Assembly: GCA_921293015.1 (NCBI GenBank)
Contig: OV121093.1
Coordinates: 31,010,622-31,074,621 of the forward strand
Length of the DNA: 64,000 bases
DNA from: Phorcus lineatus
Taxonomy: Eukaryota; Mollusca; Gastropoda; Trochida; Trochidae
Reading direction: 5' to 3'
In this document: piece by piece, positions 1 through 59,579 of the stretch
Numbering within the stretch: the stretch's first letter is position 1
Layout of the letters: each line of letters begins with the position of its first letter
Program-made: the position numbers and the translations under genes
The notes under the pieces: generated by a model
Database searches by the model: none
What the model saw: the letters and a program-made list of their open reading frames with translations, nothing else
What the model was told of the DNA's origin: nothing

Positions 1-1183
1 TTGGAGCTAATATTGATAAATGTGTTACTTTAGAAAACCCTTTTTGGCGAAATGTACTGGAATCCTGGAACACTTATTACAGGCTGTATAAATGTGATGG
101 AAATAAAATAGGGGATATTTTGACGGAACCGCTTTGGCTAAATCATCAGTTTGTTCATCCAGATTTTATTATTTAGTCTTGGTTTTCTAAAGGAGTCTGT
201 AATATTAGAGATATATGTGATTCTAAAGGTATATTGTCTTTTGAACAATTAAAAAATAAATATGATTTGAAGGGCACTATATTACATTACAATAAAATGT
301 TATTCCTATCAAATGGAGAAAAGTCATCTCTGAGGAACATTTTATCAAAGAAAATATTAATATTTCAGAAGCATTAAGAAATATGCTAATACCTCATGGT
401 TGTAGATACTTTTATGACATCTTGATAAAGAAAGACAATCTACCAAAGGTCTGTGTTAAATGGCAAACCCAATTTCCTGAAGGTATTAACTGGAAAGATG
501 TATTTACTAGATTTAGAAAATGTACAAAAGATGTTAAACTGATTGATTTCCAATACAAATTCATTCACAAGAAGATTTACACTAAGCGTGAGTTGTTGTA
601 CATGAAAATTGTTGACGACGATATATGTTCGTTTTGTATGGAAGAGAAAGAAAATGTAGAACATGTGTTATATTATTGTAAGCATATCAAAACCTTTTGG
701 TCTCGATTAGAAATGTTGTTAAAAGACAAAATACCCGATTTTGTCTTAACTAAGTTTATAGTTTGTTTTGGCTCTCAAGACTCCAATTACCTTTTTAACC
801 ATATTACCCGACTGGCTAAGAAATACATACATAACATGAGTATTAGAAGGGAAATTCCTACATTTAAATTTTTTTACAAATCTCTAAAAGAGATAATAAA
901 AGTAGAAAAATATATTGCACAAAAAACAACAAATACTTTATATTTGAAAAAAAAATGGAGACCTTTGGTTAAAGATTTGCTTAGGTAGCACCTGTATCTT
1001 TATATTATTAAAGACCATAAATATTAAGAATGAGAAAGATCTGTAATACCAGTCTATTTGTACATTATGAATGACAAGTATTAATATACCATGTAGAAAT
1101 GATACAAGTAAGGTATAGTTGAATGTATGTAAAGACATGATGACAATGATCTTGGAACTGAATAAAAATATACAAAAAAAACC
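1..1183 (+). mobile_element. 3' end of an L1/Tx1-like non-LTR retrotransposon
   Basis: The window opens inside a non-LTR retrotransposon. It contains the C-terminal part of the reverse transcriptase ORF (described separately), a 3' untranslated stretch after the stop at 988, and an A-rich tail near 1160-1183 (AATAAA followed by an interrupted A run). The left end lies outside the window, so total length is unknown. The assignment rests on the order of the C-terminal blocks and a zinc-knuckle of zf-RVT type, both known from L1/Tx1-clade elements; the exact clade is an inference. Confidence 0.7.
3..988 (+). pseudogene. L1/Tx1-like ORF2 C-terminal region, disrupted
   Basis: Frame 3 from base 3 reads through the region after the RT palm, with NPFWRNVLESW followed by PLWLNHQF. 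It hits an in-frame stop at about 174, directly before SWFSKGVCNIRDI, and continues to about 375. The protein then continues one frame over from about 362, giving a 201-codon open stretch (383-988). That stretch ends in a zinc-knuckle CSFCMEEKENVEHVLYYC (C-x2-C...H...C), the zf-RVT feature of L1/Tx1 elements. One stop and one frameshift show the copy is dead. The open part is a remnant and not a host gene. Confidence 0.75.
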
Positions 1184-29624: not shown

Positions 29625-31102
29625 GACTCACGGGCAAAAGAAACTATACCAACATTGTTTTGTTGTTATCAACATTATCAGATATGTCACATAAATAATG
29701 TGATACTCGTTTTAAAGACAATTTAACTGACCAATATTTGATCGAAATTTAGATACGGTGACACGTACAGTTAATGCAGTAGAATGTAATGAATGAAACT
29801 GGGGGTAAATGTCAATTTGCAAAAATAAAGAAGTCTTTTTAGAGACTACAGAAAACGCTTTTTTCACAAAGGAAACACTGGAAAACTGTCAGTATCTGGT
29901 ATGGCCTCCGTTCCTTTGAATACAGGCCTGCACACGTCGACGCACAGAATTCACAAGGCGCCTGATGACGTCATAAGGGATTGCTTGTCATTCTTCCACG
30001 AGTGCCTGGATAAACGTTTGCCGACTTGATGGAGGTGGATTTTACTGCTTTCTCTGCAAGTCCAAATGATCCCACAAGTGTTCGATCGGTGATAAATCCG
30101 GTGATCTCGCTGGAAGTCTCTGATGACTCTGGCTGTGTGGAACAGGCATTGTCTTGTAAAAGGATTTCTCAGGGGTATTAAAAAGAGCACCACAGGACGA
30201 AAACCTTAGCCTTAGGCATTCAAAGTACGGTCAAAGAAACAAGTTCTGTTGTATTGTCCCTGCACATTCCATCCCAAACCATGACGGTACCGCCGCTGAA
30301 TGGCACAACCTCCTGGACACAACACGGGGCCGTTCTCTCTCCTCTTCGACGATAAATGCGCACTGTGTAGCTCGAAGCTGCTTTCATCTGAAAACACAAT
30401 TTTTAGCCAGTTCCTGTTCTGCCACCGCTCTACCATTCTTGTCCACTGGTGACGGTTATGTCGGTCACGTCGGCTCAGCATCATCCCGGGGAAGGGCCGG
30501 TACCCTTGAATGCCATGTTCACGAAGACGTCTGATCACTGTCCTTCTGCTGATAAAACGGTGTACCGCTGTTGCTGCTGATGACGTCACTGTGCGTCATT
30601 GCGTAGGTGAATCATGCGGATGTAGCGGTCGTCGTTTGCGGTTGTGACCCTGTGTTTTCCACTTCTTGGCCGGTCCTCGGTTCCACCTGTCTGCACCATT
30701 CTTGTGTGCAGTCTGGTTATCGTAGTTCGTTTGCAGTTGAAGATACGAGCAACATTGGCGCGACGTGCGCCCAACTGCAACATACCAATCGCTCTCTCTC
30801 GTTCCTCCGTGGTAAGTCTCGGCATGTCACTTGTTGTGTTCGTTACGACTGAGGTCTAAAGCATGCAGATTCGTGATTTTTATACAATTCGGTTCCATAT
30901 GAACGTAATGCACATGCATACCATTTTGCTCGAAAAACGTGTGACAAAGTCCATATTTGGTAAGAAACATTATTTTTTTTCTCAGTAATTAGGAAGTTGC
31001 CTTCTTGTGACATAGTTTGATGATAAAAATTCCATTTCGAAAGCTAGTTTCAACTTTTCAAAACAAAACATATTTTGCATTAGTTTCTTTTGCCCCTGAG
31101 TT
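29625..31102. mobile_element. Full-length dead Tc1/mariner element with TA target duplication
   Basis: The left end GACTCACGGGCAAAAGAAAC (29625 on) is mirrored at the right end by AACTCAGGGGCAAAAGAAAC (reading inward from 31102). That is 20 of 22 bases matching through the following TA. Both ends are flanked by TA (29623-29624 and 31103-31104), the Tc1/mariner target duplication. The total length of 1478 bp is normal for the family. The transposase inside is on the minus strand and is broken, so the element cannot move by itself. Confidence 0.9.
29889..30825 (-). pseudogene. Tc1-like transposase, frame-disrupted
   Basis: Starts at ATG 30825 with MPRLTTEERERAIGMLQLGA (first helix-turn-helix), then NCKRTTITRLHTRM and the GTEDRPRSGKHRVTTANDD linker. 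A stop follows RNDAQ at 30586. The next frame continues with SRRTVIRRLREHGIQGYRP and the first catalytic Asp in IVFSDESSF. Another shift leads to remnants of the second block (HTARVI, lacking the DNARPHTA aspartate) and, in a different frame, SPDLSPIEHLWDHLD, which carries the third acidic residue. The end is RNGGHTRY and a TGA stop at 29889, as in intact relatives. At least two frameshifts and a stop inactivate it. Confidence 0.9.
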
Positions 31103-35206: not shown

Positions 35207-35773
35207 AGTTGATTTTAAAGTTAAAATGCTAAACTGCACGTGGTCTGATTCAAAGACTTGCTGGATGCAAATTTACATTGAATAGAGGCCGGAATATGTA
35301 CTGATTTTAACTCATGGACTGGTTCATTTACTCATCTGTACATATTTCATGTGAAAAATGTATCAAATTTAGACCTAACAGATACTTTAGAACAGGAGTT
35401 ATTACTACACAACATGAAAGTTACCTGAAGAGTGAACCTCACATAATACTCTTTGCAAGAACACCTGCAAACATTTCGAGGCAAGCAACAGCATGGTTTG
35501 TCGAAACCGAAACTGGAAATATCCTATTACAATAACTGGAAAATAAATGGTGCACGTAGCGCAATAAACTTGGCTCTGACTTGTAATAGTAAAAAAAAAC
35601 TGCGATAATTTCAATTACCTTCTCTAAACTGAACCCTATTAGAGAAAACTGAAATTGAAAATAAATTGATATAAATATATATTCACTCAAAGAAAATAAA
35701 CACATGAAATGAGTCTTTGATAAAAAAGAGATCTCTTTCGATTCAAATCAACCTCCGGAGCGACAACAGAGTT
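35207..35773. other. No gene seen
   Basis: AT-rich 3' flank of the Thr-rich exon. An AATAAA at about 35659 on the plus strand could serve as a poly(A) signal, but it is far from the stop. Confidence 0.35.
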
Positions 35774-38700
35774 GAGCATGAGGCTTAACGCTTAATGTCA
35801 CTCTGCCCAATACTCAGCTGCACTCTCCAGGACCATGCAACATTTGTGCACAGAACGTTTGAGCATGAGGCTTAACGCTTAATGTCACTCTGCTGAATAC
35901 TCAGCTGCACTCTCTTGGACCATGCAACATTTGTGCACAGAACGTTTGAGCATGAGACTTAACGCTTAATGTCAGTCTGCTGAATACTCAGCTGCACTCT
36001 CCAGGACCATGCAACATTTGTGCACAGAACGTTTGAGCATGAGACTTAACGCTTAATGTCACTCTGCCCAATACTCAGCTGCACTCTCCAGGACCATGCA
36101 ACATTTGTGCACAGAACGTTTGAGCATGAGGCTTAACGCTTAATGTCACTCTGCCCAATACTCAGCTGCACTCTCCAGGACCATGCAACATTTGTGCACA
36201 GAACGTTTGAGCATGAGGCTTAACGCTTAATGTCACTCTGCTGAATACTCAGCTGCACTCTCTTGGACCATGCAACATTTGTGCACAGAACGTTTGAGCA
36301 TGAGACTTAACGCTTAATGTCACTCTGCTGAATACTCAGCTGCACTCTCTTGGACCATGCAACATTTGTGCACAGAACGTTTGAGCATGAGGCTTAACGC
36401 TTAATGTCACTCTGCTGAATACTCAGCTGCACTCTCTTGGACCATGCAACATTTGTGCACAGAACGTTTGAGCATGAGACTTAACGCTTAATGTCACTCT
36501 GCTGAATACTCAGCTGCACTCTCCAGGACCATGCAACATTTGTGCACAGAACGTTTGAGCATGAGGCTTAAAGCTTAATGTCACTCTGCTGAAAACTCAG
36601 CTGCACTCTCCAGGACCATGCAACATTTGTGCACAGAACGTTTGAGCATGAGGCTTAAAGCTTAATGTCAGTCTGCTGAATACTCAGCTGCACTCTCCAG
36701 GACCATGCAACATTTGTGCACAGAACGTTTGAGCATGAGACTTAACGCTTAATGTCACTCTGCTGAATACTCAGCTGCACTCTCCAGGACCATGTAACAT
36801 TTGTGCACAGAACGTTTGAGCATGAGGCTTAACGCTTAATGTCACTCTGCTGAAAACTCAACTGCACTCTCCAGGACCATGCAACATTTGTGCACAGAAC
36901 GTTTGAGCATGAGACTTAACGCTTAATGTCACTCTGCTGAATACTCAGCTGCACTCTCTTGGACCATGCAACATTTGTGCACAGAACGTTTGATCATGAG
37001 ACTTAACGCTTAATGTCACTCTGCTGAATACTCAGCTGCACTCTCCAGGACCATGCAACATTTGTGCACAGAACGTTTGAGCATGAGGCTTAACGCTTAA
37101 TGTCACTCTGCTGAATACTCAGCTGCACTCTCCAGGACCATGCAACATTTGTGCACAGAACGTTTGAGCATGAGACTTAACGCTTAATGTCACTCTGCTG
37201 AATACTCAGCTGCACTCTCCAGGACCATGCAACATTTGTGCACAGAACGTTTGAGCATGAGACTTAACGCTTAATGTCAGTCTGCTGAATACTCAGTTGC
37301 ACTCTCCAGGACCATGCAACATTTGTGCACAGAACGTTTGAGCATGAGACTTAACGCTTAATGTCACTCTGCCCAATACTCAGCTGCACTCTCCAGGACC
37401 ATGCAACATTTGTGCACAGAACGTTTGAGCATGAGGCTTAACGCTTAATGTCACTCTGCCCAATACTCAGCTGCACTCTCCAGGACCATGCAACATTTGT
37501 GCACAGAACGTTTGAGCATGAGGCTTAACGCTTAATGTCACTCTGCTGAATACTCAGCTGCACTCTCTTGGACCATGCAACATTTGTGCACAGAACGTTT
37601 GAGCATGAGACTTAACGCTTAATGTCACTCTGCTGAATACTCAGCTGCACTCTCTTGGACCATGCAACATTTGTGCACAGAACGTTTGAGCATGAGGCTT
37701 AACGCTTAATGTCACTCTGCTGAATACTCAGCTGCACTCTCTTGGACCATGCAACATTTGTGCACAGAACGTTTGAGCATGAGACTTAACGCTTAATGTC
37801 ACTCTGCTGAATACTCAGCTGCACTCTCCAGGACCATGCAACATTTGTGCACAGAACGTTTGAGCATGAGGCTTAAAGCTTAATGTCACTCTGCTGAAAA
37901 CTCAGCTGCACTCTCCAGGACCATGCAACATTTGTGCACAGAACGTTTGAGCATGAGGCTTAAAGCTTAATGTCAGTCTGCTGAATATTCAGCTGCACTC
38001 TCCAGGACCATGTAACATTTGTGCACAGAACGTTTGAGCATGAGGCTTAACGCTTAATGTCACTCTGCTGAAAACTCAGCTGCACTCTCCAGGACCATGC
38101 AACATTTGAGCACAGAACGTTTGAGCATGAGACTTAACGCTTAATGTCAGTCTGCTGAATACTCAGTTGCACTCTCCAGGACCATGCAACATTTGTGCAC
38201 AGAACGTTTGAGCATGAGACTTAACGCTTAATGTCACTCTGCTGAATACTCAGCTGCACTCTCCAGGACCATGTAACATTTGTGCACAGAACGTTTGAGC
38301 ATGAGGCTTAACGCTTAATGTCACTCTGCTGAAAACTCAGCTGCACTCTCCAGGACCATGCAACATTTGTGCACAGAACGTTTGAGCATGAGACTTAACG
38401 CTTAATGTCACTCTGCTGAATACTCAGCTGCACTCTCTTGGACCATGCAACATTTGTGCACAGAACGTTTGATCATGAGACTTAACGCTTAATGTCACTC
38501 TGCTGAATACTCAGCTGCACTCTCCAGGACCATGCAACATTTGTGCACAGAACGTTTGAGCATGAGGCTTAAAGCTTAATGTCAGTCTGCTGAATATTCA
38601 GCTGCACTCTCCAGGACCATGTAACATTTGTGCACAGAACGTTTGAGCATGAGGCTTAACGCTTAATGTCACTCTGCTGAATACTCAGCTGCACTCTCCA

Positions 38701-38985
38701 GGACCATGCAACATTTGTGCACAGAACGTTTGAGCATGAGACTTAACGCTTAATGTCACTCTGCTGAATACTCAGCTGCACTCTCCAGGACCATGCAACA
38801 TTTGTGCACAGAACGTTTGAGCATGAGACTTAACGCTTAATGTCAGTCTGCTGAATACTCAGTTGCACTCTCCAGGACCATGCAACATTTGTGCACAGAA
38901 CGTTTGAGCATGAGGCTTAACGCTTAATGTCAGTCTGCTGAATACTCAGCTGCACTCTCCAGGACTATTTGTGCACAGAACGTCT
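35774..38985 (+). repeat. Satellite array, 87-bp unit, about 37 copies
   Basis: Head-to-tail array with an exact period of 87 bp; the unit starts GAGCATGAGGCTTAACGCTT and ends TTGTGCACAGAACGTTT. Units vary at a few fixed sites: GAGGCTT or GAGACTT, AACGC or AAAGC, CACTC or CAGTC, CTGAATAC or CCCAATAC or CTGAAAAC, CCAGG or CTTGG. The pattern of variants repeats every 15 units: markers at 36064, 36151 and 36591 recur at 37369, 37456 and 37896, each 1305 bp on. All reading frames contain a stop in each unit although 87 is divisible by three. The last unit is truncated where a BEL/Pao remnant begins. Confidence 0.95.
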
Positions 38986-40152: not shown

Positions 40153-43100
40153 AGAGGTTTATTAGACGCATATAAGATGTATACGAGACGTATATTTGAC
40201 GTTTATTTGATGTTTATTAGACGCATATAAGGTGTATATGAGACGTACATGAGACGTTTATTTGATGTTTATTATAGAGGTTTATAAGACGCATATAAGA
40301 TGTATATGAGACGTATATAAGACGTTTATTTAATGTTTATTATAGAGGTTTATAAGACGCATATAAGATGTATATGAGACGTATATAAGACGTTTATTTA
40401 ATGTTTATTATAGAGGTTTATTAGACGCATATAAGATGTATATGAGACGTATATTAGACGTTTATTTGATGTTTATTATAGAGGTTTATTAGACGCATAT
40501 AAGATGTACATGAGGCGTATATTAGACGTTTATTTGATGTTTATTATAGAGGTTTATTAGACGCATATAAGATGTATATGAGACGTATATTAGACGTTTA
40601 TTTGATGTTTATTATAGAGGTTTATTAGACGCATATAATATGTATATGAGACGTATATTAGACGTTTATTTGATGTTTATTATAGAGGTTTATTAGACGC
40701 ATATAAGATGTACATGAGGCGTATATTAGACGTTTATTTGATGTTTATTATAGAGGTTTATTAGACGCATATAAGATGTATATGAGACGTATATTAGACG
40801 TTTATTTGATGTTTATTATAGAGGTTTATTAGACGCATATAATATGTATATGAGACGTATATTAGACGTTATTTGATGTTTATTATAGAGGTTTATTAGA
40901 CGCATATAATGTGTATATGAGACGTATATTAGACGTTTATTTGCTGTTTATTATAGAGGTTTATTAGACACATATAAGATGTATATGAGACGTATATTAG
41001 ACGGTTATTTGATGTTTATTATAGAGGTTGATTAGACGCATATAATATGTATATGATACGTATATTAGACGTTTATTTGATGCTTATTATAGAGGTTTAT
41101 TAGACGCATATAAGATGTATATGAGGCGTATATTTGACGTTTATTTGATGTTTATTATAGAGGTTTATTAGACGCATATAAGATGTATATGAGACGTACA
41201 TGAGACGTTTATTTGATGTTTATTATAGAGGTTTATTAGACGCATATAATATGTATATGAGGCGTATATTAGACGTTTATTTGATGTTTATTATAGAGGT
41301 TTATTAGACGCATATAAGATGTACATGAGGCGTATATTTGACGTTTATTTGATGTTTATTATAGAGGTTTATTAGACGCATATAAGGTGTACATGAGGCG
41401 TATATTAGACGTTTATTTGATGTTTATTATAGAGGTTTATTAGACGCATATAAGATGTACATGAGGCGTATATTTGACGTTTATTTGATGTTTATTATAG
41501 AGGTTTATTAGACGCATATAAGGTGTACATGAGGCGTATATTAGACGTTTATTTGATGTTTATTATAGAGGTTTATTAGACGCATATAAGATGTACATGA
41601 GGCGTATATTTGACGTTTATTTGATGTTTATTATAGAGGTTTATTAGACGCATATAAGGTGTATATGAGACGTACATGAGACGTTTATTTGATGTTTATT
41701 ATAGAGGTTTATAAGACGCATATAAGATGTATATGAGACGTATATTAGACGTTTATTTGATGTTTATTATAGAGGTTTATTAGACGCATATAAGGTGTAT
41801 ATGAGACGTACATGAGACGTTTATTTGATGTTTATTATAGAGGTTTATAAGACGCATATAAGATGTATATGAGACGTATATAAGACGTTTATTTAATGTT
41901 TATTATAGAGGTTTATTAGACGCATATAATATGTATATGATACGTATATTAGACGTTTATTTGATGTTTATTATAGAGGTTTATTAGACGCATATAAGAT
42001 GTACATGAGGCGTATATTTGACGTTTATTTGATGTTTATTATAGAGGTTTATTAGACGCATATAAGATGTACATGAGGCGTATATTAGACGTTTATTTGA
42101 TGTTTATTATAGAGGTTTATTAGACGCATATAAGATGTATATGAGACGTATATTAGACGTTTATTTGATGTTTATTAGACGCATATAAGGTGTATATGAG
42201 ACGTACATGAGACGTTTATTTGATGTTTATTATAGAGGTTTATAAGACGCATATAAGATGTATATGAGACGTATATAAGACGTTTATTTAATGTTTATTA
42301 TAGAGGTTTATTAGACGCATATAAGATGTACATGAGGCGTATATTAGACGTTTATTTAAAGTTTATTATAGAGGTTTATTAGACGCATATAAGATGTATA
42401 TCAGACGTATATTAGACGTTTATTTGATGTTTATTATAGAGGTTTATTAGACGCATATAATATGTATATGAGACGTACATGAGACGTTTATTTGATGTTT
42501 ATTATAGAGGTTTATAAGACGCATATAAGATGTATATGAGACGTATATAAGACGTTTATTTAATGTTTATTATAGAGGTTTATTAGACGCATATAAGATG
42601 TACATGAGGCGTATATTAGACGTTTATTTGATGTTTATTATAGAGGTTTATTAGACGCATATAAGATGTATATGAGACGTACATTAGACGTTTATTTGAT
42701 GTTTATTATAGAGGTTTTTTAGACGCATATAATATGTATATGAGACGTATATTAGACGTTATTTGATGTTTATTATAGAGGTTTATTAGACGCATATAAT
42801 GTGTATATGAGACGTATATTAGACGTTTATTTGCTGTTTATTATAGAGGTTTATTAGACGCATATAAGATGTATATGAGACGTATATTAGACGTTTATTT
42901 GATGTTTATTATAGAGGTTGATTAGACGCATATAAGATGTATATGAGACGTATATTAGACGGTTATTTGATGTTTATTATAGAGGTTGATTAGACGCATA
43001 TAATATGTATATGATACGTATATTAGACGTTTATTTGATGCTTATTATAGAGGTTTATTAGACGCATATAAGATGTATATGAGGCGTATATTTGACGTTT

Positions 43101-46100
43101 ATTTGATGTTTATTATAGAGGTTTATTAGACGCATATAAGATGTATATGAGACGTATATAAGACGTTTATTTAATGTTTATAATAGAGGTTTATTAGACG
43201 CATATAAGATGTATATGAGACGTATATTAGACGTTTATTTGATGTTTATTATAGAGGTTTATTAGACGCATATAAGGTGTACATGAGGCGTATATTAGAC
43301 GTTTATTTGATGTTTATTATAGAGGTTTATTAGACGCATATAAGATGTATATGAGACGTATATTAGACGTTTATTTGATGTTTATTATAGAGGTTTATTA
43401 GACGCATATAATATGTATTTGAGACGTATATTAGACGTTTATTTGATGTTTATTATAGAGGTTTATTAGACGCATATAAGGTGTATATGAGACGTATATT
43501 AGACGTTATTTGATGTTTATTATAGAGGTTTATTAGACGCATATAAGATGTATATGAGGCGTATATTAGACGTTTATTTGATGTTTATTATAGAGGTTTA
43601 TTAGACGCATATAAGATGTATATGAGACGTATATTAGACGTTTATTTGATGTTTATTATAGAGGTTTATTAGACGCATATAATATGTATATGAGACGTAC
43701 ATGAGACGTTTATTTGATGTTTATTATAGAGGTTTATAAGACGCATATAAGATGTATATGAGACGTATATAAGACGTTTACTTAATGTTTATTATAGAGG
43801 TTTATTAGACGCATATAAGATGTACATGAGGCGTATATTAGACGTTTATTTGATGTTTATTATAGAGGTTTATTAGACGCATATAAGATGTATATGAGAC
43901 GTATATTAGACGTTTATTTGATGTTTATTATGGAGGTTAATTAGACGCATATAAGATGTATATGAGACGTATATTTGACGTTTATTTGATGTTTATTATA
44001 GAGGTTTATTAGACGCATATAAGATGTATATGAGACGTATATTAGACGTTATTTGATGTTTATTATAGAGGTTTATTAGACGCATATAAGATGTATATGA
44101 GACGTATATTAGACGTTTATTTGATGTTTATTATAGAGGTTTATTAGACGCATATAATATGTATATGAGACGTATATTAGACGTTATTTGATGTTTATTA
44201 TAGAGGTTTATTAGACGCATATAATGTGTATATGAGACGTATATTAGACGTTTATTTGCTGTTTATTATAGAGGTTTATTAGACGCATATAAGATGTATA
44301 TGAGACGTATATTAGACGTTTATTTGATGTTTATTATAGAGGTTTATTAGACGCATATAAGATGTATATGAGACGTATATTAGACGGTTATTTGATGTTT
44401 ATTATAGAGGTTGATTAGACGCATATAATATGTATATGATACGTATATTAGACGTTTTTTTGATGCTTATTATAGAGGTTTATTAGACGCATATAAGATG
44501 TATATGAGGCGTATATTTGACGTTTATTTGATGTTTATTATAGAGGTTTATTAGACGCATATAAGATGTATATGAGACGTATATAAGACGTTTATTTAAT
44601 GTTTATAATAGAGGTTTATTAGACGCATATAAGATGTATATGAGACGTATATTAGACGTTTATTTGATGTTTATTATAGAGGTTTATTAGACGCATATAA
44701 GGTGTACATGAGGCGTATATTAGACGTTTATTTGATGTTTATTATAGAGGTTTATTAGACGCATATAAGATGTATATGAGACGTATATTAGACGTTTATT
44801 TGATGTTTATTATAGAGGTTTATTAGACGCATATAATATGTATTTGAGACGTATATTAGACGTTTATTTGATGTTTATTATAGAGGTTTATTAGACGCAT
44901 ATAAGGTGTATATGAGACGTATATTAGACGTTATTTGATGTTTATTATAGAGGTTTATTAGACGCATATAAGATGTATATGAGGCGTATATTAGACGTTT
45001 ATTTGATGTTTATTATAGAGGTTTATTAGACGCATATAAGATGTATATGAGACGTATATTAGACGTTTATTTGATGTTTAATATAGAGGTTTATTAGACG
45101 CATATAATATGTATATGAGACGTACATGAGACGTTTATTTGATGTTTATTATAGAGGTTTATAAGACGCATATAAGATGTATATGAGACGTATATAAGAC
45201 GTTTATTTAATGTTTATTATAGAGGTTTATTAGACGCATATAAGATGTACATGAGGCGTATATTAGACGTTTATTTGATGTTTATTATAGAGGTTTATTA
45301 GACGCATATAAGATGTATATGAGACGTATATTAGACGTTTATTTGATGTTTAGTATAGAGGTTTATTAGACGCATATAATATGTATATGAGACGTATATT
45401 AGACGTTATTTGATGTTTATTATAGAGGTTTATTAGACGCATATAATGTGTATATGAGACGTATATTAGACGTTTATTTGCTGTTTATTATAGAGGTTTA
45501 TTAGACGCATATAAGATGTATATGAGACGTATATTAGACGTTTATTTGATGTTTATTATAGAGGTTGATTAGACGCATATAAGATGTATATGAGACGTAT
45601 ATTAGACGGTTATTTGATGTTTATTATAGAGGTTTATTAGACGCATATAAGATGTATATGAGACGTATATAAGACGTTTATTTAATGTTTATAATAGAGG
45701 TTTATTAGACGCATATAATATGTATATGAGACGTATATTAGACGTTATTTGATGTTTATTATAGAGGTTTATTAGACGCATATAATATGTATTTGAGACG
45801 TATATTAGACGTTTATTTGATGTTTATTATAGAGGTTTATTAGACGCATATAAGGTGTATATGAGACGTATATTAGACGTTATTTGATGTTTATTATAGA
45901 GGTTTATTAGACGCATATAAGATGTATATGAGGCGTATATTAGACGTTTATTTGATGTTTATTATAGAGGTTTATTAGACGCATATAAGATGTATATGAG
46001 ACGTATATTAGACGTTTATTTGATGTTTAATATAGAGGTTTATTAGACGCATATAATATGTATATGAGACGTACATGAGACGTTTATTTGATGTTTATTA

Positions 46101-47731
46101 TAGAGGTTTATAAGACGCATATAAGATGTATATGAGACGTATATAAGACGTTTATTTAATGTTTATTATAGAGGTTTATTAGACGCATATAAGATGTACA
46201 TGAGGCGTATATTAGACGTTTATTTGATGTTTATTATAGAGGTTTATTAGACGCATATAAGATGTATATGAGACGTATATTAGACGTTTATTTGATGTTT
46301 AGTATAGAGGTTTATTAGACGCATATAATATGTATATGAGACGTATATTAGACGTTATTTGATGTTTATTATAGAGGTTTATTAGACGCATATAATGTGT
46401 ATATGAGACGTATATTAGACGTTTATTTGCTGTTTATTATAGAGGTTTATTAGACGCATATAAGATGTATATGAGACGTATATTAGACGTTTATTTGATG
46501 TTTATTATAGAGGTTGATTAGACGCATATAAGATGTATATGAGACGTATATTAGACGGTTATTTGATGTTTATTATAGAGGTTTATTAGACGCATATAAG
46601 ATGTATATGAGACGTATATAAGACGTTTATTTAATGTTTATAATAGAGGTTTATTAGACGCATATAAGATGTATATGAGACGTATATTAGACGTTTATTT
46701 GATGTTTATTATAGAGGTTTATTAGACGCATATGTGGTGTACATGAGGCGTATATTAGACGTTTATTTGATGTTTATTATAGAGGTTTATTAGACGCATA
46801 TAAGATGTATATGAGACGTATATTAGACGTTTATTTGATGTTTATTATAGAGGTTTATTAGACGCATATAATATGTATTTGAGACGTATATTAGACGTTT
46901 ATTTGATGTTTATTATAGAGGTTTATTGGACGCATATAAGGTGTATATGAGACGTATATTAGACGTTATTTGATGTTTATTATAGAGGTTTATTAGACGC
47001 ATATAAGATGTATATGAGGCGTATATTAGACGTTTATTTGATGTTTATTATGGAGGTTAATTAGACGCATATAAGATGTATATGAGACGTATATTTGACG
47101 TTTATTTGATGTTTATTATAGAGGTTTATTAGACGCATATAAGATGTATATGAGACGTATATTAGACGTTATTTGATGTTTATTATAGAGGTTTATTAGA
47201 CGCATATAAGGTGTATATGAGGCGTATATTTGACGTTTATTTGAAGTTTATTATAGAGGTTCATTAGATGCATATAAGATGTATATGAGACGTATATTAG
47301 ACATTTATTTGATGTTTATTATAGAGGTTTATTAGACGCATATAATATGTATATGAGACGTATATTAGACGTTTATTTGATGTTTATTATAGAGGTTTAT
47401 TAGACGCATATAAGATGTATATGAGGCGTATATTAGACGTTTATTTGATGTTTATTATGGAGGTTTATTAAACCTATATAAGATGTATATGAGACGTATA
47501 TTTGACGTTTATTTGATGTTTATTATAGAGGTTTATTAGACGCATATAAGATGTACATGAGACGTATATTAGACGTTATTTGATGTTTATTATAGAGGTT
47601 TATTAGACGCATATAATATGTATTTGAGACGTATATTAGACGTTTATTTGATGTTTATTATAGAGGTTTATTAGACGCATATAAGATGTATATGAGACGT
47701 ATATTAGACGTTTATTTGATGTTTGTTATAG
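40153..47731 (+). repeat. Satellite array, 68-bp unit, about 111 copies
   Basis: Tandem array 7.6 kb long. The 68-bp unit divides into six related blocks: GACGCATATAA, GATGTATATGA, GACGTATATTA, GACGTTTATTT, GATGTTTATTA and TAGAGGTTTATTA (five of 11 bp, one of 13 bp), so it grew from an 11-bp motif of type GAYGYWTATWW. Common variants are AAGATG/AATATG/AAGGTG, TATATGAG/TACATGAG, GAGACG/GAGGCG, and a one-base-shorter GACGTTATTTG. A marker unit (CATATAATGTGTATATGAG following a short unit) recurs at about 40891, 42781, 44206, 45428 and 46377. Intervals of 1890, 1425, 1222 and 949 bp are about 28, 21, 18 and 14 units, showing block duplications. No gene is embedded. Confidence 0.95.

Positions 47732-50934
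<3,203 letters not shown>

Positions 50935-50984
<50 letters not shown>
50935..50984 (+). repeat. (TA)n microsatellite, left flank of the inverted element
   Basis: About 25 TA repeats. A similar run lies outside the other arm at 52058-52118. Confidence 0.95.
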
Positions 50985-50986
<2 letters not shown>

Positions 50987-51077
50987 TAAAAAGGTGAAAG
51001 GTCGCACGTGAAGTAAATGTATATTTGAAAATAAAATACTTCAGACGACACTTGCTGTAGATATCATTTTAATGATG

Positions 51078-51123
51078 ACTGGATGCGTCGCATTTCGACT
51101 TGATAACAAGTCTTTTCAACAGT
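51078..51123 (-). ncRNA. Hammerhead-ribozyme-like motif, left arm
   Basis: Identical in sequence to the right-arm copy (51959-52004), but on the minus strand. The same stems I, II and III and the same U3-A8 core variant apply. Confidence 0.45.
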
Positions 51124-51246
51124 GTGGAGTTTTCACAACAATGCAAATATATAGGTACACATGCTTAACAATGTAACAATATACAATAGACTTTGATTGA
51201 TTAGCAAGTGACAAGTGGTTAGCTTGATTAGCTTACAATGCGCTAT

Positions 51247-51921
51247 TTATGAGGGATTAAGAGTTGAGTTATTATGGTAGCTTCTTCCCGGTCTGTCCCA
51301 GTCCATCAATTGATCTTTTGTTTCAATCGCACCGGTGACAAGACCTGTATACATGTAATTTCTAGGAGTATATGTTTTCGCGTTTTTTGAGGAAATTCTT
51401 TTGATAAAATTTAATTTACTCCAGAAGCTTTTTGAAAGGGTGTTCATGGATGATGTTGATAAATTGTCATTTCTTCTCCCTTCCGATTGCGATACAGTTG
51501 AGTCCTCCCCCGCACTTGATAAAATTGTGTTGGATTGGTGAAAGTCCTCGGATGATGATAAGTCCTCAGATTGACTCAAGTCCTCTACAGTTAAGGATCC
51601 CTCTGATTGTAGGTTTATACTTGGGAATTGTTCCAAATTTTCCTCTCCATCAAATGGTGGGGGCGTTGTTCTGTCGTGTTTCGTCCCATCCTTTTGGACC
51701 CTGTTTTTACGAAGTTGATTGTGTCCTTTCTTTGAGGGTCTTTTCTTTTTATTTTTCTGCACATTAGAAGATGTAGTTGATGGTTGCTTTATCAGCCAGT
51801 TTTCTTTTTTCATCCATAGTTTCACACTTTTATTTTCCTCCCTAATTGTGTCATTATTCCATATTTCCAAAAGTTTATCTTGGATGTCTGTTTCATTGTA
51901 TATTGTTAAATTGTTAAGCAT
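51247..51921 (-). CDS. 224-aa low-complexity ORF inside the inverted element, unknown family
   Basis: Starts with MLNNLTIYNETDIQDKLLEI inside the right arm and runs to TAG or TAA at 51247. Residues 1-50 look like a compact helical N-terminus with Trp and Ile (EIWNND, KLWMKKENWLIKQ). Residues 55-90 are very basic (KNKKKRPSKKGHNQLRKNR), suggesting nucleic-acid binding or nuclear import. Residues 95-165 are Ser/Glu/Asp-rich with repeated SEDLS-type words. The end (SFWSKLNFIKRISS, then YMYTGLVTGAIETKDQLMDW) is again ordered-looking. No known domain was recognised. The long open frame in AT-rich DNA makes chance unlikely. Since the start codon is carried by the arm, the left arm also opens MLNNVTIYN on the plus strand but stops after 12 codons. 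A mobile-element protein is the best guess. Confidence 0.55.
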   Translation of the reverse strand: MLNNLTIYNETDIQDKLLEIWNNDTIREENKSVKLWMKKENWLIKQPSTTSSNVQKNKKKRPSKKGHNQLRKNRVQKDGTKHDRTTPPPFDGEENLEQFPSINLQSEGSLTVEDLSQSEDLSSSEDFHQSNTILSSAGEDSTVSQSEGRRNDNLSTSSMNTLSKSFWSKLNFIKRISSKNAKTYTPRNYMYTGLVTGAIETKDQLMDWDRPGRSYHNNSTLNPS

Positions 51922-51958
51922 GTGTACCTATATATTTGCCATGTTGTGAAAACTCCAC

Positions 51959-52004
51959 ACTGTTGAAAAGACTTGTTATCAAGTCGAAATGCGACGCATC
52001 CAGT
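51959..52004 (+). ncRNA. Hammerhead-ribozyme-like motif, right arm
   Basis: Read in order on the plus strand: stem I ACTG; core UUGAAAA; stem II GACTTG, loop TTAT, CAAGTC; GAA; stem III ATG, loop CGACG, CAT; C at 52000 as the cleavage-site base; stem I CAGT. All three helices pair fully. The hammerhead consensus core is CUGANGA...GAA, with A15.1-U16.1 and H17. Everything matches except positions 3 and 8, which in active ribozymes pair as C3-G8 and here are U3-A8, so the pair is kept. Cleavage would fall between 52000 and 52001. It is antisense to the 224-aa ORF. Stem I is only 4 bp, and no activity can be claimed. Confidence 0.5.
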
Positions 52005-52054
52005 CATCATTAAAATGATATCTACAGCAAGTGTCGTCTGAAGTATTTTATTTT

Positions 52055-52057
<3 letters not shown>

Positions 52058-52118
<61 letters not shown>
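52058..52118 (+). repeat. (TA)n microsatellite, right flank of the inverted element
   Basis: About 30 TA repeats immediately outside the right arm. Confidence 0.95.
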
Positions 52119-53838: not shown

Positions 53839-54027
53839 TTACAAACTGGTCTTGGTTAACCATCCTATAGTTGCACCCCTGCAACACCCTTATCTGTTAA
53901 ATCAGTGAAATTTCAGATCTTATCCAGAAGAGGTCTGTTCAAAATTATGCAATTTTACAATCTCTCAAAGTACAAAAGAAATTACAAATCAAAACTAGAA
54001 AAGGAATCATTGCTAGTATGACAAACT
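53839..54027. other. Degenerate entry into the 172-bp satellite
   Basis: Contains faint matches to the satellite unit (for example TTTCAGATCTTATCC and GTCTGTTC), suggesting a highly decayed edge copy. Confidence 0.35.
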
Positions 54028-57000
54028 TCTAGCATATATATTACCATTTTGGTTCAATATGTATATATATTTCAGATGAGATCTGTTCCAACATTTTCCC
54101 TTTGACACTCTGAGTCTTCAAGTCCAAAGAAGCAGTTTATATTCTACAGATTAGTATCTTAGCTACAACAAGAGCCCAACTACAAGTAGATCTTACTTAT
54201 TTATCTTACATATATATTACCATTTTGGCTCACAAGCCCTTAGGATTACATCTCAGATGAGATCTGTTCCGACTTTTGCCTTTTGACACTCTCTCCAAGT
54301 CCAAAGAGATCAGTTTACATTCTACAGATAAGTATCAAAACTACTACAAGATCTCAATTACAAGTAGTTCTTACTCCCTTATATATATATATTACCATTT
54401 TGGCTCACAAGCCCTTAGAAATACATCTAAGATGAGATCTGCTCAACCTTTTGCCTTTTGACACTCTCTCCTAGACCAAAGAAGCAGTTAATATTCTACA
54501 GATTAGTATCACAGCTACCACAAAAGCCCAATTATAAGTAGCTCTTACTTCTAGCATAAATATTACCATTTTGGCTCACAAGCCCTTAGGATTACATCTC
54601 AGATGAGATCTGTCCAAATAATGCCTTTTAACACTTTCTCCGAGTCCAAAGAAGCAGTTCATATTCTACAGATTAGTATCACAATTTCCATAAGAGCTCA
54701 ATTACAAACAGGTCTTTCTTCTAGCATATATATTACCATTTTGGCTCACAAGCCCTTGGGATTACAACGCCTTACTTTTGCCTTTTGACACTCTCTCCCA
54801 GTCCAAAGAAACAGTTTATATTCTACAGATTCACTAAGTATCACAGCTACCAAAAAAGCCCATAATTACAAGTAGCTCTTACTTCTAGCAAATATATTAC
54901 CATTTTGGCTCACAAGCCATTAGGATTCCATCTCAGATGAGATCTGTTCCAACTTTTGCCTTTTGACACTCGCTCCCAGTCCAAAGAAACAGTTTATATT
55001 CTACAGATTAGTATCACAGCTAACAAAAAAGCCCATAATTACAAGTAGCTCTTTTTTCTAGCATATATATAACCATTTTGGCTCACAAGCCCTTAGGATT
55101 ACATCTCAGATGAGATCTGTTCCAAATAATGCCTTTTGACACTCTCTCCCAGTCCAAAGAAGCAGTTCATATTCTACAGATTAGTATCACAATTTCCATA
55201 AGAGCCCAGTTACAAGTAGCTCTTACTTCTAGCATATATATTACCATTTTGGCTCACAAGCCCTTAGGATTACAATGCAGATGAGACCTGTTCCAACTTT
55301 TGCCTTTTGACACTCTCTCCCAGTCCAAAGAAACAGTTTATATTTTACAGATTAGTATCACAGCTACCAAAAAAGCCCATAATTACAAGTAGCTCTTACT
55401 TCAAGCATATATATTACCACTTTGGCTCACAAGCCCTTAGGATTCCATCTCAGATGAGATCTGTTCCAACTTTTGCCTTTTGACACTCTCTCCCAGTCCA
55501 AAGGATCAGTTCATATGCTACAGATTAGTATCACAGCTACCACAAAAGCCCAATTACAAACAGGTCTTTCTTCTAGCATATATATTACCATTTTGGCTCA
55601 CAAGCCCTTAGGATTACACCTTAGATGAGATCTGTTCCAACTTTTGCCTTTTGACACTCTCTCCCAGTCCAAAGGATCAGTTTATATTTTACAGAGTAGT
55701 ATCACAACTTTCAAAAGAGCCCAGTTACAAGTAGCTCTTACTTCTAGCATATATATTACCATTTTGGCTCACAAGCCCTTAGGAGTACATTGCAGATGAG
55801 ACCTGTTCCAACTTTTGCCTTTTGACACTCTCTCCCAGTCCAAAGAAACAGTTTATATTCTACAGATTAGTATCACAGATACCAAAAAAGCCCATAATTA
55901 CAAGTAGGTCTTACTTCTAGCATATATATTACCATTTTGGCTCACAAGCCCTTAGGATTCCATCTCAGATGAGATCTGTTCCAACTTTTGCCTTTTGACA
56001 CTCTCTCCCAGTCCAAAGAAACAGTTTATATTTTACAGATTAGTATCACAGCTACCAAAAAAGCCCATAATTACAAGTAGCTCTTACTTCTAGCATATAT
56101 ATAACCATTTTGGCTCACAAGCCTTTAAAATTTCATCTCAAATAAGACCTGTTCCAACTTTGGCCTTTTGACACTCTCTCCCAGTCCAAAGAAACAGTTC
56201 ATATGCTACAGATTAGTATCACAGCTACCACAAAAGCCCAATTACAAGTAGGTCTTACTTATAGCATATATATTACCTTTTTGGCTCACAAGCCTTTAGG
56301 ATTACATCTCAGATGAGATCTGTTCCAAATTTTGCCTTTTGACACTTTCTCCGAGTCCAAAGAAGCAGTTTATATTCTACAGATTAGTATCACAATTTCC
56401 ATTAGAGCCCAGTTACAAACAGGTCTTTCTTCTAGCATATATATTACCATTTTGGCTCACAAGCCCTTAGGAGTACATCTCAGATGAGACCTGTTCCAAA
56501 TTTTGCCTTTTGACACTCTCTCCCAGTCCAAAGAAACAGTTTATATTCTACAGATTAGTATCACAGCTACCAAAAAAGCCCAATTACAAGTAGCTCTTAC
56601 TTCTAGCATATATATTACCATTTTGGCTCACAAGCCCTTAGGAGTACATCTCAGATGAGACCTGTTCCAAATTTTGCCTTTTGACACTTTCTCCCAGTCC
56701 AAAGAAACAGTTTACATTCTACAGATTAGTATCACAGCTACCAAAAAAGCCCATAATTACAAGTAGCTCTTACTTCTAGCATATATATTACCATTTTGGC
56801 TCACAAGCCCTTAGGAGGACATCTCAGATGAGACCTTTTCTAAGTTTTGCCTTTTGACACTCTCTCCCAGTCCAAAGAAACAGTTTATATTTTACAGATT
56901 AGTATCGCAGCTACCAAAAAATCCCATAATTACAAGTAGCTCTTACTTCTAGCATATATATTACCATTTTGGCTCACAAGCCCTTAGGAGTACATCTCAG

Positions 57001-59330
57001 ATGAGACCTGTTCCAACTTTTGCCTTTTGACACTTTCTCCCTGTCCAAAGAAACAGTTCATATGCTACAGATTAGTATCACAGCTACCAAAAAAGCCCAA
57101 TTACAAGTAGCTCTTACTTCTAGCATATATATTACCATTTTGGCTTACAAGCCCTTAGGATTCCATCTCAGATGAGATCTGTTCCAACTTTTGCCTTTTG
57201 ACACTCTCTCCCTGTCCAAAGAAACAGTTCATATGCTACAGATTAGTATCACAGCTACCAAAAAAGCCCAATTACAAGTAGCTCTTACTTCTAGCATATA
57301 TATTACCATTTTGGCTCACAAGCCCTTAGGAGTACATCTCAGATGAGACCTGTTCCAAGTTTTGCCTTTTGACACTCTCTCCCAGTCCAAAGAAACAGTT
57401 CATATGCTACAGATTAGTATCACAGCTACCAAAAAAGCCCATAATTACAAGTAGCTCTTACTTCTAGTATTTATATTACCATTTTGGCTCACAACCCCTT
57501 TGGAGTACATCTCAGATGAGACCTGTTCCAAGTTTTGCCTTTTGACACTCTCTCCCAGTCCAAAGAAACAGTTTATATTCTACAAATTAGTATCACAGCT
57601 ACCAAAAAAGCCCATAATTACAAGTAGCTCTTACTTCTAGCATATATATTACCATTTTGGCTCACAAGCCCTTAGGAGTACATCTCAGATGAGACCTGTT
57701 CCAAGTTTTGCCTTTTGACACTTTCTCCCAGTCCAAAGAAACAGTTTATATTTTACAGATTAGTATCACAGCTACCAAAAAAGCCCATAATTACAAGTAG
57801 CTCTTACTTCTAGCATACATATTACCATTTTGGCTCACAAGCCCTTAAAATTTCATCACAAATAAGACCTGTTCCAACTTTTGCCTTTTGACACTCTCTC
57901 CCAGTCCAAAGAAACAGTTCATATGCTACAGATTAGTATCACAGCTACCAAAAAAGCCCATAATTACAAGTAGCTCTTACTTCTAGCATATATATTACCA
58001 TTTTGGCTCACAAGCCCTTAAAATTTCATCACAAATAAGATCTGTTCCAACTTTTGCCTTTTGACAATCTCTCCCAGGCCAAAGAAACAGTTCATATGCT
58101 ACAGATTAGTATCACAGCTACCAAAAAAGCCCAATTACAAGTAGCTCTTACTTCTAGCATATATATTACCATTTTGGCTTACAAGCCCTTAGGAGTACAT
58201 CTCAGATGAGACCTGTTCCAAGTTTTGCCTTTTGACACTCTCTCCCAGTCCAAAGAAACAGTTCATATGCTACAGATTAGTATCACAGCTACCAAAAAAG
58301 CCCATAATTACAAGTAGCTCTTACTTCTAGCATATATATTACCATTTTGGCTCACAAGCCCTTAGGATTCCATCTCAGATGAGATCTGTTCCAAATTTTG
58401 CCTTTTGACACTCTCTCCCAGTCCAAAGAAACAGTTTATATTTTACAGATTAGTATCACAGCTACCAAAAAAGCCCATAATTACAAGTAGCTCTTACTTC
58501 TAGCATATATATTACCATTTTGGCTCACAAGCCCTTAGAATTACATCTCAGATGAGACCTGTTCCAACTTTTACCTTTTGACCCTCTCTCCCAGTCCAAA
58601 CCAAATCACATATACTCTACTGATAAGTATCACAATTACCAAAAGAATTCAAAATTACAAGTAGGTCTTACTTATAGCATATATATTACCTTTTTGGCTC
58701 ACAAGCCTTTAGGATTACATCTCAGATGAGATCTGTTCCAAATAATGCCTTTTGACACTTTCTCCCAGTCCAAAGAAACAGTTTATATTCTACAGATTAG
58801 TATCACAGCTACAAAAAAAAGCCCATAATTACAAGTAGCTCTTACTTCTAGCATATATATTACCATTTTGGCTCACAAGCCCTTAGGAGTACATCTCAGA
58901 TGAGATCTGTTCCAACTTTTGCCTTTTGACACTCTCTCCCAGTCCAAAGAGACAGTTTATATTTTACAGATTAGTATCGCAGCTACCAAAAAAGCCCATA
59001 ATTACAAGCAGCTCTTACTTCTAGCATATATATTACCATTTTGGCTCACAAGCCCTTAAAATTTCATCACAAATAAGACCTGTTCCAACTTTTGCCTTTT
59101 GACAATCTCTCCCAGTCCAAAGAAACAGTTCATATTCTACAGATTAGTATCACAGCTACCAAAAAAGCCCATAATTACAAGTAGGTCTTACTTCTAGCAT
59201 ATTTATTACCATTTTGGCTCACAAGCCCTAAGGATTATATCTCAGATGAGATCTGTTCCAACTTTTGCCTTTTGACACTCTCTCCCTGTCCAAACCAAAT
59301 CACATATACTCTACTGATAAGTATCACAAT
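54028..59330 (+). repeat. Satellite array, unit about 172 bp, about 31 copies
   Basis: Tandem array of 5.3 kb. The unit runs from TAGCATATATATTACCATTT through TGGCTCACAAGCCCTTAGGA, ATCTCAGATGAGATCTGTTCC, TTTTGCCTTTTGACACTCTC, CCAGTCCAAAGAAACAGTTT and ATTCTACAGATTAGTATCAC to ACAAGTAGCTCTTACTTC. Successive copies are 173 bp apart where measured (57311, 57484, 57657), or 2-3 bp shorter when CCCATAATTAC is CCCAATTAC. Edge copies (54028-54230, 58570-58680 and 59280-59330, with CCAAACCAAATCACATATAC) are more diverged than central ones, as expected for arrays homogenised from within. The length is close to one nucleosome repeat. No gene is embedded. Confidence 0.95.
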
Positions 59331-59579
59331 TACCAGATTTTGTTCATTAATAATTCAATTACAGCAAAACTAAAATATTTTTTTTCAAATTATGCTCTCT
59401 TGGATAAGAAAATTCAGATATAAGTAAATCAAATCAAGTGACAAACGTGTTTACTTGAGTCAAGCAACTGAAACGTCAATCAAAGTCTAAGTCGACCTAG
59501 TGAAATAGCTGAAAGATTGCCGACACATTAAACCCAAACTCACTCACACCAAGCTTGAGGGATGGTCTATTATTGTGCG
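59331..59579. other. No gene seen
   Basis: AT-rich spacer between the 172-bp satellite and the pearl-like element. Confidence 0.5.

Follow-up and report, generated by a model that had tools for sequence, protein, structure and literature searches.

Whether a 46-nt sequence of the gastropod Phorcus lineatus that resembles a hammerhead ribozyme with a U3-A8 pair in its core is a genuine ribozyme motif, and what kind of element carries it, was examined by computational analysis of the surrounding DNA and its genomic relatives. The window (the whole stretch of DNA analysed, 64 kb of a 957.8-Mb assembly of 74 contigs) holds the following features at this locus:

51959..52004, + strand: motif of hammerhead type whose core, TTGAAAA, has U3-A8; it lies in the shorter, inverted pLTR, with a cut predicted at 52000/52001.
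51078..51123, - strand: second, identical occurrence of this motif, carried by the longer copy's pLTR on the ORF strand; cut predicted at 51082/51081.
51895..52068, + strand: inverted 5'-truncated copy, pLTR only, without the 32-nt tail, ending at (TA)n; 97% identical to the unit (query 1345-1518 of 1550).
50982..51899, - strand: longer 5'-truncated copy with the C-terminal part of ORF1, pLTR and tail; 95% identical to the unit (query 651-1550).
51247..51921, - strand: open frame of 224 aa, the C-terminal part of a Penelope-type ORF1; 89% identical to residues 224-442 of the L143 frame.
50982..51013, - strand: 32-nt "tail", on one side only (one side's 3' end lies at query 1518, the other's at 1550).
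50937..50984: (TA)24 at one outer end.
52058..52118: (TA)30 at the other outer end.

Elsewhere the window contains three tandem arrays: a 7.5-kb array at 40170-47732 (68-bp unit, ∼112 copies), which is strongly strand-asymmetric (GC skew ∼0.5), and satellite arrays at 35772-38965 (87-bp unit, 37 copies) and 54025-59335 (173-bp unit, 31 copies). Frames that by eye resemble a broken Tc1-type transposase lie at 30215-30855 (-), and the end of a LINE-type ORF with a zf-RVT domain (E 5.9e-7) at 383-988 (+).

The earlier note had described a 46-nt motif with three stems and every invariant base except C3 and G8, these two having changed together to U3-A8 so that their pair is kept. Its sequence and coordinates were correct, and the joint change was present as claimed. 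The layout is ACTG-TTGAAAA-(6-bp stem II, loop TTAT)-GAA-(ATGC-GAC-GCAT)-C-CAGT, with three helices around the core and Watson–Crick pairs at 14/14 stem positions. Compared with the hammerhead core (C3 U4 G5 A6 N7 G8 A9 / G12 A13 A14 / A15.1-U16.1 / H17), it departs only at C3 and G8; since U3-A8 is documented as a natural exception, the motif was classed as a variant hammerhead and not as a canonical member. The identical second copy (51078-51123, -), which had been overlooked, sits in the opposite inverted arm. Folding prediction gave -8.8 kcal/mol for the hammerhead and -10.3 kcal/mol for the minimum fold, with pair probabilities of 0.07-0.10 for stems I and III. The motif is without loop I, and for this reason the usual tertiary contact is absent.

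To estimate the chance expectation, 5.4 Gb of sequence (4.71 Gb effective) was generated to match the dinucleotide composition of the window after removal of large tandem arrays. It contained 338 U3-A8 look-alikes whose stems I/II/III reached 4/3/4 bp or more, equivalent to 0.0092 per 64-kb window on both strands, and 11 (0.0003 per window) when a stem II of at least 6 bp was required too. In this AT-rich composition U3-A8 look-alikes were about five times commoner than canonical ones (338 versus 69, simulated). The fall of the two mismatches exactly on positions 3 and 8, which had been taken as telling, is only mildly so by itself: 14/333 chance hits with two mismatches also had another Watson–Crick pair at 3-8 and U3-A8 look-alikes are common. 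One window among many may hold an accidental look-alike, and genomic relatives are therefore needed as evidence; the case for a ribozyme rests on them and not on the window's chance count.

Compared with Rfam covariance models to E 10, the window motif yielded no hammerhead hit. This silence says little, because a U3-A8 type I motif used as a control (L127) was missed as well; a canonical hammerhead was detected at E 1.5e-5, yet below gathering, and a hammerhead passed the gathering threshold at 0/10 loci whose cores fit the canonical pattern. With L127 missed and none of these ten loci reaching gathering, Rfam was dropped as a negative test. Eight viral-contig stretches combined a U3-A8 core with GTCC/GGAC as stem II, and two of them (L126 and L127) reached the fold threshold of the script, which was passed by 0/4 broken C3-A8 cores and, among the matches listed, by 122/130 canonical C3-G8 cores. 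Both lie on IMG/VR contigs: L126:180-232 (+) is a natural U3-A8 hammerhead of type III (RF00008, 41.4 bits, E 3.2e-8), and L127:5732-5787 (-) is a natural type I hammerhead with the same TTGAAAA box. Type I U3-A8 hammerheads may be under-counted, Rfam having missed both that were tried (the window motif and L127). A 2007 study reportedly found any Watson–Crick pair to be functional at the hammerhead 3-8 positions. Natural covariation from C3-G8 to U3-A8, with in vitro activity cited, was reported in 2011 in the accessible text of Perreault et al. (PMC3088659); U3-A8 in natural hammerheads is thus already known and not new. In deep mutagenesis of one hammerhead, the 3-8 positions were rescued only by a G:C swap, according to the accessible text (PMC9901934).

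The two motif copies lie one in each arm of an inverted repeat (51014-51187 / 51895-52068; 174 nt, 97% identity), which is formed by two copies of one element joined head-to-head with an overlap of ∼5 nt. The first codons of the 224-aa frame derive from the inverted arm; the longest open run in 200 simulated windows was 205 codons. In the minimum fold of an RNA across the window copy, 165 of 174 arm bases pair arm to arm, so that this copy, consisting of two truncated inverted copies whose predicted RNA is mostly paired in this way, is probably inert. Searches of Pfam, PDB, phage, viral-contig and prokaryote sequences with the window ORF gave nothing significant, and the arm DNA matched nothing among plasmids and viral contigs except a chance 19-base match (L001). 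Arm palindromes as binding sites showed no enrichment (P 0.13-0.16).

A search of the genome with a 161-nt arm query gave at least 44 matches (best 40 of 1295 candidates scored), and a search with the ORF at least 102 (best 95 of 1216 candidates scored), several of the ORF1 matches containing stops. The copies are 5'-truncated to varied lengths, and most of those examined stop at (TA)n, long (TA)n being absent from the ends of L138/L150, L159 and L161. Their 3' ends cluster at query 1518 and 1550, 32 nt apart, with a few at 1511, 1515 and 1543. For the window, L142, L143 and L145, one side of the head-to-head pair stops at one of these two main points and its partner at the other; among other head-to-head cases, L157 ends at 1518 and 1543, L144 is truncated by the edge of the sequence analysed, and L158 is more complex. 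Direct pLTR-ORF-pLTR units were found at L143 (1510 nt, ORF on the hammerhead strand) and at L167, and the direct unit of ∼1510 nt carries a 404-aa ORF. Direct and inverted pLTRs, together with an optional tail at one 3' end (30-40 nt in Penelope-like elements, 32 nt here), place the family with these elements. RT and GIY-YIG endonuclease were absent between the pLTRs of both direct units, and in the absence of RT the family looks to be a non-autonomous Penelope derivative. Direct and inverted pLTRs, a tail on one pLTR and head-to-head pairs are described as Penelope marks in the accessible text on Adineta vaga (PMC3846280), and a tail, an inverted pLTR and AT-rich targets in that of PMC11167929. 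The inverted arms, regarded in the earlier note as an unusual setting for a U3-A8 core, are accordingly the inverted-pLTR structure described for Penelope insertions, and natural U3-A8 cores had already been reported.

ORF1 of L143 and L167 differed by dN 0.168 and dS 0.472 over 389 codons (NG86), or 0.177 and 0.418 (YN00); dN/dS of 0.36 (NG86) and 0.42 (YN00) in this comparison indicates that the window-family ORF1 is under purifying selection. At L158, L207 and L208 several pLTR fragments, some direct and others inverted, are piled up at one site, which suggests repeated insertion or template jumps.

A more distant family, 31-33% identical to the window ORF (L174-L177), carries ORF1 followed by an overlapping 787-aa ORF in another frame. 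This ORF ends in a GIY-YIG domain (Pfam PF01541, E 1.3e-9) and contains the motifs FRPI, SFDV and YLDD, which by their letters only we take to be those of an RT; Pfam assigned it to no RT family with a cut-off of E 0.1. An autonomous Penelope-like element of this kind stands in tandem at L194:3775-7361, its ORF1 and 787-aa RT-EN frames overlapping by ∼108 nt in different frames, an arrangement that suggests frameshifting or re-initiation. The autonomous family likewise has two end points, separated by 39 nt and mostly lying at (TA)n; in its head-to-head pairs (L202, L204, L205 and L212) each side uses a different one.

At the corresponding place in the pLTR, ∼130 nt before the ORF1 ATG, the autonomous family has a canonical C3-G8 hammerhead (L174 at 1104-1151; TTCC-CTGAAGA-A-GCTTC-GAATCAA-GAAGC-A-GAA-ATATGCATAT-T-GGAA), which recurs in L176, L194 (twice), L195 and L197. 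Among broken copies of the family, L179 has one uncompensated stem II change, and 1/12 of the copies counted is broken after stem II. When the stem pairs of the two motifs were set out by hand, 4/4 stem I pairs and the 3-8 pair were found to have changed on both sides and still to pair. Two stem II pairs had changed and were kept, three were the same and 10.1-11.1 was an A-A mismatch in L174; at least one stem III pair had changed and was kept. This comparison carries more weight than the conservation inside the window family. When each of the two pLTRs was used to simulate 30 Mb of sequence, no comparable hits (0) were obtained under criteria, including a mismatch allowed at 10.1-11.1, that were fixed after L174 had been seen. 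The L174 motif was likewise without an Rfam match, and its predicted hammerhead fold lay at -4.0 against a minimum of -6.6. A further motif, at L182, combines the core TTGAAAA with ATAC/GTAT as stem I and GACC/GGTC as stem II, three of the four stem I pairs differing on both sides from those of the window; only patches of its stretch align with the pLTR (E 0.004 for the best BLAST segment), and the relationship is weak.

Within the window family the motif is strongly conserved. A 27-nt pattern comprising the 5' strand of stem I, the U3-A8 core and stem II had 353 genome matches and its reversed control none (0); position 7 was A in all 100 of the 353 matches listed. Alignment of 25 distinct copies, obtained from 34 matches of at least 150 nt after contained duplicates had been dropped and shorter matches excluded, gave the core TTGAAAA in 25/25 and a broken 3-8 pair in 0/25. 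Uncompensated stem changes were present in 4/25 (L148, two in L157, and L143 at 5209), as expected of dead copies. Copies breaking stem II or the 3-8 pair without compensation, which the earlier note had named as evidence against a ribozyme, thus occur at a low level for the stems and are lacking for the 3-8 pair among the copies aligned. Loci fetched by ORF homology contained the TTGAAAA motif in 22/32 cases, or 22/28 when the 31-33% relative's four loci are set aside; an intact window-type motif was lacking in the other ten (L165, L170, L171, L174-L177, L180, L183 and L190), of which L165 overlaps L162 and contains a copy with a broken stem III. Between the L143 and L167 subfamilies the motif is 45/46 identical, the single change lying in loop II, and the pLTR flanks are identical at 48/56, 58/70 and 54/60 positions. 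Only loop II had columns below 0.95 within the motif in 55 windows, which were chosen by an exact half-motif, so that the column frequencies are biased upwards. The stem sequences are almost invariant inside the family and the pLTR flanks are conserved too; this near-invariance is more than a ribozyme alone would require. The compensatory stem variation sought is present when the window family is compared with the autonomous relative (with one stem II pair broken), and perhaps in L182; it is missing within the window family.

A low-threshold motif scan also listed four motifs outside the family, at L170, L175, L182 and L187. That at L170:922 (+) is separate and resembles a hammerhead with a canonical core (ATCC-CTGATGA-7-bp stem II-GAA); that at L187:2121 (+), with a stem I of 7 bp, has TTGACAA as a box of U3-A8 type and may be due to chance.

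Taken together, the motif is probably the hammerhead of a non-autonomous Penelope-derived family found mostly at (TA)n, in which a Watson–Crick U3-A8 pair replaces C3-G8. The proposal of a Penelope-type hammerhead with a compensated 3-8 pair was borne out: the motif lies on the sense strand of the pLTRs, and the autonomous relative has C3-G8 and four doubly changed stem I pairs. A chance resemblance in an unrelated repeat might be argued from the look-alike rate of ∼0.009 per window, the lack of an Rfam match and the four motifs that the low-threshold scan lists outside the family. It is very improbable, given the same fold at the corresponding pLTR place in several copies of the autonomous relative and the lack of hits in either pLTR simulation, and the compensatory stem I changes between the families count strongly against it. 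That the element is a DNA transposon with 174-nt terminal inverted repeats, as the inverted arms with an ORF in between could suggest, can hardly be true and was rejected, the genome copies being 5'-truncated, arranged in direct units and ending mostly at two points at (TA)n.

The more serious alternative is that the pLTR block is kept for binding of the ORF1 or RT protein, as a promoter or as the start of reverse transcription, the hammerhead being a relic of the Penelope ribozyme that no longer cuts. The near-invariant stems and conserved flanks within the window family would fit such a relic, as would the predicted minimum fold, which differs from the hammerhead, and the finding that ribozyme mutants of the Anolis Penelope element leave insertion in vitro unaffected (accessible text of PMC11167929). 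It would not predict the matched changes that separate the window family from its autonomous relative at 3-8 and in stem I, nor that only loop II columns fall below 0.95 (in windows biased by the exact half-motif choice), and we consider it unlikely.

For the putative Penelope-type hammerhead the following course can be proposed. A tandem-unit transcript would form a minimal type I hammerhead in every pLTR, and cutting after C17 would release unit-length RNA of ∼1.5 kb. The RT/GIY-YIG protein of the autonomous relative would then act in trans on the window family; Adineta vaga Penelope pLTRs are stated to be able to mobilise foreign sequence in trans in the accessible text of PMC3846280. The Anolis ribozyme, in that of PMC11167929, cut only with its protein present, and cutting here may by analogy be similarly dependent. 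A tentative extension, somewhat more doubtful than probable, is that an ORF1-only Penelope lineage switched from C3-G8 to U3-A8 and kept the new pair across subfamilies at dS ∼0.45, perhaps with L182, as a natural double-mutant series, the ORF1 protein possibly serving as a chaperone for a poorly folding ribozyme. If the ribozyme is active, one genome with related C3-G8 and U3-A8 families offers a natural test of 3-8 replacement in a catalytic core, and also allows a test of whether element proteins aid ribozyme folding. An ORF1-only Penelope derivative with its ORF under purifying selection bears, moreover, on the role of ORF1. Among the papers listed by a literature search, none was by its title about a non-autonomous ORF1-only Penelope-like element with a hammerhead, a weak negative with most subscription papers outside its coverage.

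Among known systems, compared here as far as the accessible texts describe them, Poseidon of Anolis carolinensis (PMC11167929) shares the sense-strand hammerhead at the pLTR-ORF junction, the tail and the AT-rich targets. The Phorcus family differs in having U3-A8 instead of C3-G8 and direct units with ORF1 only, and its motif lies ∼120 nt upstream of the ORF1 ATG, whereas the Poseidon hammerhead overlaps the start codon. The Adineta vaga Penelope (PMC3846280) is similar in that its pLTRs occur in both direct and inverted arrangement, one inverted pLTR has a 31-bp tail, and repeats stand head-to-head; the word "hammerhead" is absent from the main text of that paper, and the Phorcus family is an ORF1-only lineage. 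The hammerheads of Perreault et al. (PMC3088659) likewise show C3-G8 covarying to U3-A8 and are said to be active in vitro; no Penelope element is named in the accessible text, and in Phorcus U3-A8 is fixed in a repeated family. Animal retrozymes (PMC7229834) resemble the Phorcus family in being non-autonomous; their type I hammerheads give unit-length RNA, as is predicted for Phorcus, and they are short tandem repeats of ∼150-450 bp, in contrast to a Phorcus unit of ∼1.5 kb (∼1510 nt) with a 404-aa ORF under purifying selection.
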